Below are positions 60,795-64,000 of a stretch of 64,000 nt of DNA, in pieces. The first letter of the stretch is position 1, and each line of letters opens with the position of its first letter. Made by a program: the position numbers and the translations under genes. Location: NCBI GenBank assembly GCA_022072085.1, contig JAJVII010000006.1:1-64000 (forward strand), given 5' to 3'. The notes under the pieces were generated by a model. It was given only the letters and a program-made list of their open reading frames with translations. It was not told the DNA's origin and did no database searches. This DNA comes from Phycisphaerae bacterium (lineage in GTDB: Bacteria > Planctomycetota > Phycisphaerae > JAJVII01).

Positions 60795-62840
60795 ATGCCA
60801 GTCAGCAAACCCGAGGAGCTTCGCAACATCTGCCTGGTCGGTCACGGCGGCGTCGGCAAGACAACGCTGCTGGAGAACCTGCTCGGCCTGTGCAGCAGCG
60901 TCAGCCGCATCGGGACCGTCGAGGAAGGCAACACGGTCAGCGACTTCGACGACGAGGAAAAGGAACGCGGGCACAGCATCTCGGCCGGCGTGGCCTATTT
61001 CGCTCACAACGGTGTCGAGGTGAACGTCATCGACACGCCGGGCTATCCGGACTTCATCGGGCCTGCGCTGGCGTCGCTGGGGGCGGTGGAGACGGCGATC
61101 ACTGTCATCTCCGCGGCCGCGGGCATCGAAGTGAACACGCGGCGGCTGTTCGAGGCTGCCGGCCGCGAGGGGCTGGCCCGGGCGATCGTCGTCAGCAAGA
61201 TCAGCAGCGAGAACCTCGACCTGCCCGCGCTGGTTGCGATCATCCAGGAGACTTTCGGCAACAACTGCCTGCCGATCAACCTGCCGACCGGCGGCTGCAA
61301 GGATGTCGTGGACGTGTTGACGAAGGAAACGGGCGAAGCCGATTTCGGCGACCCGGCCTCCGCCCACACCGCGCTGATGGAAGCCGTCATCGAGGCCGAC
61401 GAGGCCATGATGGAACGCTACCTCGGCGGCGAGGCGATCGAGCAGGCCGAACTGGGCGCGGCCCTGGGCAAGGCCATGGCGGCCGGCTCGGTCGTGCCGA
61501 TCTTCTTCGTCGATGCGCGCGACAAGGTCGGGCTGGCCGCCCTGCGCGACGCGATCGTCAACTACTTTCCCACGCCCGTAACGGGCAAGCCGCGCGTCGT
61601 TGTGACCGGCGAGGGCGAGTCGGCCAAGGAGACCTCCGTCGAAGCCAGGGCCGACGGCCCGCTGGTCGCGCAGGTCTTCAAGGTGGCCGCCGACCCGTTC
61701 GTCGGCAAGCTCTGCGTCTTCCGCCTGCTCTCGGGCACGCTGAAGAACGACCTGCCGTTCGCGGTTGACGACGAGCGCGGCAGCCACAAGGCCGGCCACC
61801 TCTTCAAGGTGTTCGGCAAGGACCACCGCGAGGTGTCCGCCCTGGTGGCCGGCGACCTGGGCGCAGTGGCCAAGGTCGAAGACCTGGTCTATGGCTCGAT
61901 CATCCATGCCCCCAACAGCGATTCGGGGGAGGTGGGCACGCCCGCGATGCCGACGCCGATGTATTCGCTGGCCATCGCCCCAAAGACCCGCGGCGACGAG
62001 GGTAAGATTTCCGAGGCCCTGGCCAAGCTGGTCGAGGAGGACCAGACCCTCCGCGCGACCCACGATGCCCAGACAGCCGAACTGGTCATCAGCGGCCTGG
62101 GCGATCTGCACCTCCGCGTCGTGCTTGCGAAGATGAAGCGGCGTTTCAACCTCGAAGTCGAAACGAAGTCTCCGAAGATTCCCTATCGCGAGACCATCAG
62201 CGCCAAGGCCGATGGCCATTACCGCCACAAGAAGCAGACCGGCGGCGCCGGGCAGTTCGGCGAAGTCTATCTCCGCGTCGAGCCGATGGACCGCGGCGGC
62301 GGCTTCGAGTTCGTCGACGACATCTTCGGCGGGTCGATCCCCAGCCAGTTTCTCCCGGCCGTCGAGAAGGGCGTCCGCGACTGCATGGATCAGGGCGTCG
62401 TCGCCGGTTACCCGCTCCAGGACGTCCGCGTGGTCGTCTACGACGGCAAGTACCACCCGGTGGACAGCAAGGAAGTCGCCTTCCGCACCGCCGGCCGCGG
62501 CGCGATGCGCGACGCCATCGCCAAGGCCAAACCCGTCCTGCTCGAGCCGATTGTGAACCTGGAAGTCGTCGTGCCGGCCCAGTTCATGGGTGACATCACC
62601 GGCGACATGAACGGCCGGCGCGGCCGCATCCAGGGCATGGACCAACTCCCGGGCAACTTGAGCGTCATCAAGGCCCAGGTCCCGCTGGCCGAGGTGACCA
62701 CCTACAACAGCCAGCTCCGCTCGGTCACCGGCGGGCAGGGCAGCTACAGCATGGAGTTCAGCCACTACGAACCCGTGCCGGGCAACGTCCAGCAGCAGAT
62801 CGTCGCGATGTCGACCAAGCCGAAGGACGAGGAGGAGTAG
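60795..62840 (+). CDS. EF-G-like translational GTPase with altered G motifs
   Basis: A 681-residue elongation factor G paralogue (EF-G2 type), with all EF-G domains recognisable. G1 is intact: GHGGVGKT (residues 16-23). The switch I region reads ERGHSIS where EF-G has ERGITI. G3 reads DTPGYPDF (80-87), with Tyr84 replacing the catalytic histidine of canonical EF-G. The G4 position reads SKIS (134-137), not N/T-K-x-D, so the guanine-specifying aspartate is missing. Domain IV contains KKQTGGAGQFGEVYLRVEP and the C-terminal domain MDQLPGNLSVIKAQVPLAEV. It may be a slow or nucleotide-altered factor acting under stress. AAAGGA precedes the ATG. A GC-rich hairpin follows the stop. Confidence 0.88.
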   Translation: MPVSKPEELRNICLVGHGGVGKTTLLENLLGLCSSVSRIGTVEEGNTVSDFDDEEKERGHSISAGVAYFAHNGVEVNVIDTPGYPDFIGPALASLGAVETAITVISAAAGIEVNTRRLFEAAGREGLARAIVVSKISSENLDLPALVAIIQETFGNNCLPINLPTGGCKDVVDVLTKETGEADFGDPASAHTALMEAVIEADEAMMERYLGGEAIEQAELGAALGKAMAAGSVVPIFFVDARDKVGLAALRDAIVNYFPTPVTGKPRVVVTGEGESAKETSVEARADGPLVAQVFKVAADPFVGKLCVFRLLSGTLKNDLPFAVDDERGSHKAGHLFKVFGKDHREVSALVAGDLGAVAKVEDLVYGSIIHAPNSDSGEVGTPAMPTPMYSLAIAPKTRGDEGKISEALAKLVEEDQTLRATHDAQTAELVISGLGDLHLRVVLAKMKRRFNLEVETKSPKIPYRETISAKADGHYRHKKQTGGAGQFGEVYLRVEPMDRGGGFEFVDDIFGGSIPSQFLPAVEKGVRDCMDQGVVAGYPLQDVRVVVYDGKYHPVDSKEVAFRTAGRGAMRDAIAKAKPVLLEPIVNLEVVVPAQFMGDITGDMNGRRGRIQGMDQLPGNLSVIKAQVPLAEVTTYNSQLRSVTGGQGSYSMEFSHYEPVPGNVQQQIVAMSTKPKDEEE

Positions 62841-62875: not shown

Positions 62876-62910
62876 CGCCCGCGGAATCGGCCGCGGGCGT
62901 CTTGCTTGTA
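62876..62910 (+). terminator. Intrinsic terminator-like hairpin after the EF-G-like gene
   Basis: CGCCCGCGG (62876-62884) pairs perfectly with CCGCGGGCG (62891-62899) around AATCGG. It is followed by the T-rich stretch TCTTGCTTGT. Confidence 0.6.
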
Positions 62911-62926
62911 CCGCGTGCGGTGGGTC

Positions 62927-62955
62927 TTGGCCGATTGGACGGCCCGAGGTACACT
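62927..62955 (+). promoter_or_regulatory. Promoter for the coiled-coil protein gene
   Basis: TTGGCC (62927-62932) and TACACT (62950-62955) are spaced by exactly 17 bp, about 62 bases of leader before ATG 63025. Confidence 0.5.
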
Positions 62956-63024
62956 ATGAGGGGTTTAATAGGAGTGGTGCGAGTGGCGAACGGCCGCGGA
63001 CAATTATGCGACGGAGGAGCCGCG

Positions 63025-63738
63025 ATGAAACGGACCGCGATCGGCGTGGCGATGGGCCTGGCGTTGGCGGTGCTGCTCGGGGCCGCGGGCGACGAGGCCC
63101 TTGAAAAGCGAGTCAAGTCGCTGGAGACCCAGATCGTGGTTTATCAGAACCAGATCGGCCGGGCCAACTCGCGCGTGGACGCGCTGGAGACGCGGGTCAA
63201 GGCGCTGGAGTCCAAGGTCGGCGTCGGCGGAGCGGTCGCACCGGCCGGGGAGAACAAGCCCGTGACCGACCCGGCTGCCGGCGACGACCCCGCGACCGGC
63301 GACCTGCCGGCGATCGACGACTCCGGCGGCGACGCCAAGGAGCGGGCCTACAAGCTGAAGATACGGGGCCTGACCACGAAGGGCTACCTCGAGGTCGACG
63401 GCCCCGCCGGCATCAAGGACGTATGGGTTGCGCCGATCACGACGCGCCCGGGTCCCAAGAACGACGTCGAGTCGACCGGCCAGATGCGTTACATCGGCGA
63501 GGAAGACCTGAGCGAATACGACCTCACATTCAAGGTGGTCTACCGCGACATCAAGGACAACCCCGTCGGCTATGCGGAGTTCAAGGTGGCCGGCAAGCTG
63601 CTCAAGGACGACCGTGACTATGTCTTCCGCACGCCGGTGACGCTGAGCGGGCGGGCGGCGAACAAGCCTCCGGAAATCCACCTGATGAAGAAGGAGCCGG
63701 CGTCCAAGAGCGGCTCATCCACGATCCATCACTACTAG
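63025..63738 (+). CDS. Secreted coiled-coil protein of unknown function
   Basis: A 237-residue protein with a signal peptide (MKRTAIGVAMGLALAVLLGAAG). A heptad-patterned coiled coil at about residues 24-68 follows (LEKRVKSLETQIVVYQNQIGRANSRVDALETRVKALESKV), then a flexible Ala/Gly/Asp/Pro linker (70-108). The C-terminal beta-rich domain reads AYKLKIRGLTTKGYLEVDGPAGIKDVWVAPITTRPGPKNDVESTG and ends with a Lys/Ser tail. The coiled coil probably forms a trimer or tetramer in the periplasm. ATG 63025 with GGAGGAG at good spacing is preferred over the upstream start at 62902, which would place the signal peptide internally. No family is recognised. Confidence 0.72.
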   Translation: MKRTAIGVAMGLALAVLLGAAGDEALEKRVKSLETQIVVYQNQIGRANSRVDALETRVKALESKVGVGGAVAPAGENKPVTDPAAGDDPATGDLPAIDDSGGDAKERAYKLKIRGLTTKGYLEVDGPAGIKDVWVAPITTRPGPKNDVESTGQMRYIGEEDLSEYDLTFKVVYRDIKDNPVGYAEFKVAGKLLKDDRDYVFRTPVTLSGRAANKPPEIHLMKKEPASKSGSSTIHHY

Positions 63739-63777: not shown

Positions 63778-63807
63778 TTGACCGGGCGACTTGGACGACT
63801 ATATAAA
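63778..63807 (+). promoter_or_regulatory. Strong sigma-70-like promoter of the attenuator leader
   Basis: TTGACC (63778-63783) is followed by TATATAAA (63800-63807). TATATA gives a 16-bp and TATAAA an 18-bp spacer. Transcription should start near 63814, about 50 bases before the leader ORF. It is one of the closest matches to consensus in the window. Confidence 0.75.
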
Positions 63808-63862
63808 GTCGGATCACGCGATTAACGGAACGGCCGCCTGTCGGCCGATGTTGGAGCGAATC

Positions 63863-63925
63863 ATGGATAGCCGGACCCGCTATGAGCGACTGCTGGGGCT
63901 GCGGCTATCCTGCGCGCTACCGTAG
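63863..63925 (+). CDS. Leucine-rich leader peptide (20 residues)
   Basis: An ORF of 20 codons reading MDSRTRYERLLGLRLSCALP, with GGAG six bases before its ATG. Leucine occupies positions 10, 11, 13, 15 and 19. Two of the five codons are CTA, uncommon in such GC-rich DNA and suited to sensing charged leucyl-tRNA. Its stop codon lies inside the 5' arm of a predicted antiterminator, and its first bases pair with the later Leu codons in a 9-bp hairpin (63865-63873 with 63902-63910). Both features match amino-acid biosynthetic leader peptides such as those of leu and ilv operons. The controlled gene is outside the window. Arginine (four residues) is a less likely signal because its codons are spread out. 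Confidence 0.7.
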   Translation: MDSRTRYERLLGLRLSCALP

Positions 63926-63968
63926 GGTTCTCTCCACGCGTGTTCGAAACGAACGATGGGACCCTGCG
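63921..63968 (+). promoter_or_regulatory. Antiterminator helix of the leader
   Basis: Bases 63921-63930 can pair with 63959-63968 over ten positions (two G-U pairs). The 3' arm overlaps the 5' half of the terminator at 63960-63985, so the two folds exclude each other. The enclosed segment contains a further hairpin, GTTCG-AAA-CGAAC. A competing hairpin pairs 63909-63914 with 63921-63926 and would block the antiterminator when no ribosome stalls at the Leu codons. Confidence 0.6.
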
Positions 63969-63995
63969 AAGTGCTTCGTGGGGTCTTTTTCTTTT
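63960..63995 (+). terminator. Intrinsic terminator (attenuator)
   Basis: Bases 63960-63970 pair with 63975-63985 in an 11-bp stem (two G-U pairs) with the tetraloop GTGC. TTTTTCTTTT (63986-63995) follows at once. It is the strongest terminator in the window and ends no annotated gene except the 20-codon leader ORF, as expected for an attenuator. Confidence 0.85.
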
Positions 63996-64000
63996 CGCTG

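Follow-up and report, generated by a model that had tools for sequence, protein, structure and literature searches.

A probable ribosome-mediated attenuator with a leucine-rich leader peptide upstream of leuA in a Phycisphaerae bacterium

The leuA gene of a Phycisphaerae bacterium, a member of the Planctomycetota, is preceded by an element that is very probably a ribosome-mediated transcription attenuator of this gene. A first-pass annotation, made from the letters of the sequence, had read the element in this way, and the reading is supported by the presence of leuA downstream, by the conservation of leucine codons and terminator, and by covariation of the antiterminator. Ribosome-mediated attenuation is a classical, textbook mechanism. 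In the leu attenuator (leuL) of Salmonella typhimurium and E. coli, a Leu-rich leader peptide and a terminator precede leuA, and an antiterminator and the terminator are mutually exclusive. Here, we describe a computational analysis that establishes the parts of the planctomycetal element, the identity of leuA, the conservation of the arrangement, the covariation of the antiterminator, the enrichment of rare codons in the leader, and the dependence of leader folding on ribosome position.

The leader locus and its downstream gene

The window, that is, the whole stretch of 64,000 nucleotides that was analysed, covers the opening 64 kb of a contig of 143 kb, and the element lies at its end on the forward strand. 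Sequence and promoter scoring predict a promoter at 63778-63807, with a -35 box TTGACC (63778-63783) and a -10 box TATAAA (63802-63807) separated by a spacer of 18. A Shine-Dalgarno sequence, GGAG (63853-63856), lies 6 nt 5' of the ATG of an open reading frame (ORF) of 20 codons (63863-63925) with the translation MDSRTRYERLLGLRLSCALP. Five of these codons specify leucine (CTG at 63890, 63893 and 63899; CTA at 63905 and 63917), such that a short Leu-rich ORF, predicted to be translated, stands 5' of the gene. The leader RNA folds more stably than its shuffled counterparts (z -2.76; 1 of 200 shuffles).

Four helices can be drawn in this region. An early hairpin within the leader ORF has arms 63865-63873/63902-63910 (9/9 pairs, all Watson-Crick) and is possibly a pause hairpin. 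A proposed competing hairpin has arms 63909-63914/63921-63926 (6/6 pairs, one G-U). The antiterminator, which is identified by covariation and masked folding as well as by inspection, pairs 63921-63930 with 63959-63968 (10/10 pairs, two G-U). Its 5' arm holds the UAG stop codon of the leader (63923-63925), UAGGG pairing with CCCU of the terminator 5' arm, and its 3' arm is common to that same terminator arm. The intrinsic terminator spans 63960-63995, with arms 63960-63970/63975-63985 (11/11 pairs, two G-U) followed by TTTTTCTTTT. All of the parts claimed by the first-pass annotation are thus confirmed in the sequence, with nearly every coordinate correct.

The annotation had proposed to look for leuA, ilvB or another branched-chain gene beyond position 64,000, and the first gene past the window edge is indeed leuA, encoding 2-isopropylmalate synthase, with its ATG at contig position 64015. 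The product scores 714.7 bits against the NCBIfam model TIGR00973 (leuA_bact), over the cut-off of 598.7, and 779 bits against NF002086. The regulated gene therefore belongs to the pathway of the amino acid that dominates the leader. The genes aroDE, argG, aroK and aroC are located further 3' of leuA. On the 5' side, positions 62902-63735, directly upstream of the attenuator, encode a predicted secreted or coiled-coil protein without an NCBIfam match, and an EF-G-like translation factor (NF009381, 837.9 bits; cut-off 583) is encoded at 60795-62837, two genes 5' of leuA.

Conservation of the element in the class and the phylum

The nearest relative (locus L005) belongs to the same family, and its LeuA is 76% identical. 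Its leuA is preceded by the leader MDSSYNARHIARLLGLLLSCALR and by the same terminator as in the window, with a promoter at a comparable position and a Shine-Dalgarno-like GGAGAGG before the leader ATG. The two leaders differ in length in frame, by whole codons. The early hairpin is retained as GGATAGCAG/CTGCTATCC with one compensatory change from C-G to A-T, a weak indication from two sequences.

The leuA upstream regions of the class, 109 in number, were compared under a fixed rule: an ATG-started ORF of 10-45 codons with at least four leucines and 18% Leu, its stop codon at most 70 nt from a terminator. A Leu-rich ORF and an intrinsic terminator satisfying this rule are present in 74 of the 109 regions, distributed over families f1, f2, f5-f8, f10-f12, f15, f18, f24 and f27, and a terminator of similar sequence is found 5' of leuA in most members of the class. 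By the same rule, families f9, f16, f19 and f20 are without the element before leuA. The LeuA proteins of the f9, f16 and f20 members that have no attenuator (L191, L192, L194-L206) are more diverged, at about 53-58% identity. A named Phycisphaeraceae genome, whose LeuA is closest to that of f18, carries the same element, which makes Phycisphaerae the most probable identity of the class.

Of 40 genomes taken from other families in the phylum, 13 satisfy the rule with an ATG start when the terminator and distance limits are slightly looser, and many families of other classes in this set are without the element before leuA. Leu-rich leaders and terminators were also recognised by eye before leuA in named Gemmataceae, Planctomycetaceae, Pirellulales and Verrucomicrobia. 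Homologous regions, which the first-pass annotation had proposed to align, retain Leu codons and terminator together with an antiterminator that covaries. Both of the refuting checks that it had set out, on the downstream gene and on these regions, left its reading standing.

Covariation of the antiterminator arms

Sequences were aligned by anchoring on the stop codon (TAGG) and the terminator CCCT only, and hence not on pairing. In 43 loci, columns -2 to -5 before the stop show 86-91% pairing with the 5' arm of the terminator, a share that is 57-61% in shuffled data (0 of 1000 shuffles). Column pair -5:6 is formed in 88% of the sequences in the antiterminator; this pairing is not explicable by the terminator, because the partner is paired there in only 21%. 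A second test limited the effect of relatedness by taking one sequence per family, after 12 loci from further families had been included. In these 12 families, columns -1 to -5 are 75-100% paired as against 37-72% when shuffled, the observed value being reached by 2 to 29 of 2000 shuffles, and the covarying pairs include some within the terminator loop.

The arm holding the stop codon covaries with the 5' arm of the terminator, and the antiterminator, which excludes the terminator, covaries across relatives. The helix takes different forms in different families, for example UCGUAGGG/CCCUGCGA in f7 and f8, GGAUAGGG/CCCUGUCC in f18 and f15, GGCGUAGGG/CCCUACGC in f6, and GGUCUUAGG/CCCUGAGACC in f50. 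The leader stop codon lies inside the antiterminator arm in many families, and its U stands opposite G or A in 53 of 55 loci. The leader pairs better with its own terminator arm than, on average, with the arms of other families (75 of 85 loci). In most members of f12 the arm lies within the ORF, 5' of the stop codon, where it would still be covered by a ribosome at the stop. One observation counts against the assignment in the window itself: its helix stops at 63921 with no extension upstream, and most relatives extend.

Antiterminator formation and ribosome position

Folding was computed at equilibrium with positions -18 to +14 relative to the A-site codon masked, an assumed ribosome footprint. 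When the RNA ends at 63972, with the 3' arm of the terminator still unmade, the probability of the antiterminator is 0.88-0.97 either without a ribosome (0.96) or with the A site at the Leu codons 63890, 63893, 63899 or 63905. It is 0.00 when the last CUA (63917) or the stop codon occupies the A site. The same pattern is seen in 68 of 85 loci, scored as a mean probability above 0.5 over Leu codons at least six codons before the stop and below 0.2 at the stop. Masked folding thus agrees with the earlier proposal that a ribosome at the stop favours termination and that one stalled at Leu codons favours read-through. In the model, the latter holds for Leu codons 10-15, at 63890-63905, and fails for the last CUA, where the probability is 0.00; this codon (63917-63919) is predicted to be unable to sense leucine because it is too close to the stop.

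The competing hairpin fares differently. Its pairs exist, as the first-pass annotation had noted, and its role as a protector finds no support, its probability being 0.00 in every ribosome state that was folded in RNA up to 63972. A search of the 85 loci for a conserved leader segment that pairs with the antiterminator arm gave a weak mean z of -0.54; individual loci of f5, f7, f11, f12 and f18 gave clearer signals. A protector (1:2) hairpin causing termination without translation, a trp-type feature that is optional and absent from some attenuators, was therefore not found here. The folding model predicts that termination needs translation and that untranslated RNA reads through.

Once the RNA has its full length, the terminator prevails at equilibrium whatever the ribosome state. 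This counts against the reading, and the decision would have to be kinetic, as it is in known attenuators.

We propose that transcription starts near 63815 and that a ribosome would translate the 20-codon Leu-rich leader behind RNA polymerase. When leucyl-tRNA is ample, the ribosome would reach the UAG at 63923 and cover the antiterminator 5' arm, allowing the terminator at 63960-63985 to form and transcription to stop before leuA. When leucyl-tRNA is scarce, the ribosome would slow at Leu codons 10-15, chiefly at the rare CUA at 63905. The free segment 63921-63930 could then pair with 63959-63968 before the terminator 3' arm is made, and polymerase would enter leuA at 64015. In this way the element would respond to leucine.

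Control codons and alternative explanations

The choice of leucine codons in the leaders differs from that in the genes they precede. CTA accounts for 70 and CTT for 156 of 552 leader Leu codons, as opposed to 5 and 152, respectively, of 1898 in leuA itself at these loci; the nominal p values are 8e-41 for CTA and 2e-31 for CTT, the sequences being related. CTA is absent among 157 Leu codons in four genes of the window's own genome. The rare CUA codon is also chosen in the Salmonella leu leader (PMC1183508).

These codons bear on the possibility that the ORF encodes a nascent-chain arrest peptide resembling TnaC, which, from within the ribosome tunnel, would detect free leucine or some other small molecule rather than the charging of tRNA-Leu. 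The terminator and antiterminator would work alike whatever stalls the ribosome, and the peptide tail LSCAL is kept in the nearest relative. Across families, however, it is the richness in leucine that is kept and not the peptide sequence, and a bias toward CUA and CUU is unneeded for arrest by peptide sequence; we consider this explanation improbable.

The terminator might instead be governed by a riboswitch, a T-box or an RNA-binding protein, with the ORF incidental, for riboswitches also have such terminator/antiterminator pairs. Rfam gave no match in the region up to an E value of 10, apart from one chance hit inside leuA; its leader and attenuator families, leucine leaders included, and the T-box were all without a match near the element at that limit. 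The arms covary, yet no further conserved RNA is visible, whereas the Leu content and rare codons of the ORF are conserved and, in many families, the arm encloses its stop codon. Regulation of this kind is accordingly still less probable than an arrest peptide.

That the locus is a chance mixture of an ORF, GC-rich hairpins and the terminator of the upstream gene is the least credible explanation and is refuted by the controls, because 74 of 109 leuA regions pass the fixed rule and none did among shuffled sequences, reverse complements or random stretches of the window (0 of 400), and because the arrangement is kept upstream of leuA both across the class and in further families of the phylum, even though many hairpins arise in GC-rich sequence and the terminator could also end upstream transcripts.

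Promoter arrangement and leaderless leaders

The attenuator leaders display two promoter ARRANGEMENTS, one with the -10 box near the leader ATG and one with a 5' UTR and a Shine-Dalgarno sequence. The -10 box lies at most 11 nt from the leader ATG in 40 of the 78 leaders with a good promoter, mostly without a Shine-Dalgarno sequence; a -10 box within 11 nt of the ATG occurs in 16 of 1700 shuffled upstream sequences. In f7, f15, f18, most of f11 and part of f5 and f12, the box is 6-11 nt before the ATG and there is no Shine-Dalgarno sequence. Judging from these positions, the leader mRNA of those families, about half of the relatives, looks leaderless. In the window itself, the leader has a Shine-Dalgarno sequence and a predicted 5' UTR of roughly 50 nt.

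Comparison with known systems

The element resembles the leuL attenuator of Salmonella typhimurium and E. coli in its Leu-rich leader, rare CUA codon (PMC1183508), terminator and mutually exclusive antiterminator. It differs in that the UAG stop is itself paired in the antiterminator, that a protector hairpin is without support, that no Rfam leader family matches, and that it belongs to a different phylum. The actinobacterial LEU element likewise has an upstream ORF with Leu codons before leuA and is described as a pseudoknot in which the Leu codon run pairs with the leuA Shine-Dalgarno sequence (PMC1262725), whereas the present element has an intrinsic terminator separating the leader from leuA. 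In the leaderless trpL attenuator of Sinorhizobium meliloti (PMC7298713) the mRNA starts at the ATG, a start also predicted in roughly half of the related leuA leaders; that system concerns Trp rather than Leu, and the leader of the window has a 5' UTR and a Shine-Dalgarno sequence. A statement of 2010 restricted the known leader peptides to Proteobacteria and Actinobacteria, to which Firmicutes were then added (PMC2965389). The hisS/hisZ attenuators of Firmicutes (PMC2965389) also lie outside those two groups, with a different amino acid, gene and phylum. We found no description of a leu attenuator in Planctomycetota in the open-licence PMC literature, and within that literature the first-pass remark that little had been described for this phylum is borne out.

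The element extends classical leader-peptide attenuation to the Planctomycetota, a phylum whose transcription regulation is little studied, and offers a testable leucine sensor for it. Planctomycetota cells were once suspected of separating transcription and translation. Because ribosome-mediated attenuation needs the two processes to be coupled, the element implies close coupling in this phylum. The leaderless leaders of the relatives, if truly so, would mean that, in Planctomycetota, a switch of this type can run on leaderless initiation. Stop-codon pairing, a missing protector and leaderless leaders may be variations on classical attenuation. We suggest, tentatively, that the Planctomycetota share an old leuA design in which the UAG is paired in the antiterminator, many members have no protector so that untranslated RNA reads through, the leader is leaderless in about half of the class, and leuS is controlled as well.

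Leaders before other genes

Reading of the chorismate-binding genes (trpE/pabB) of the same genome revealed no obvious Trp leader in the stretch inspected. In other families, six loci (L209, L210, L212, L213, L214, L218) have, some 200 nt 5' of ilvB, G+C-rich, partly similar and possibly structured RNA (GGCGGGACG..., ACCACGCCGG...); Rfam gave no match to it, and alignment and folding gave no clear structure. By eye, leuS of the same genome (L226, G000:C43, upstream of 16223) is preceded by the leader MATSRTPMPLRLSRGSRCARGQ and a terminator, and relatives in families f1 and f10 (L239, L241) have the leuS leaders MQPLRFLSRISQLNS (G001) and MVRQSTTLSRLTLPDSLRRSLGLLGLLLR (G049, f10). One ilvB gene (L145 on the reverse strand, G000:C14, upstream of 104945; L208) has, also by eye, a GTG-started leader rich in Val and Ile, VRTSLLAMRTRDRRFTRPVVVCAAAVRAGIIERTDNV, and a terminator, with a counterpart in G001. 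Similar leaders at leuS and ilvB of the same genome count in favour of the leuA attenuator. Three loci of family f10 (L215, L217, L219) have Val/Leu-rich leaders too.
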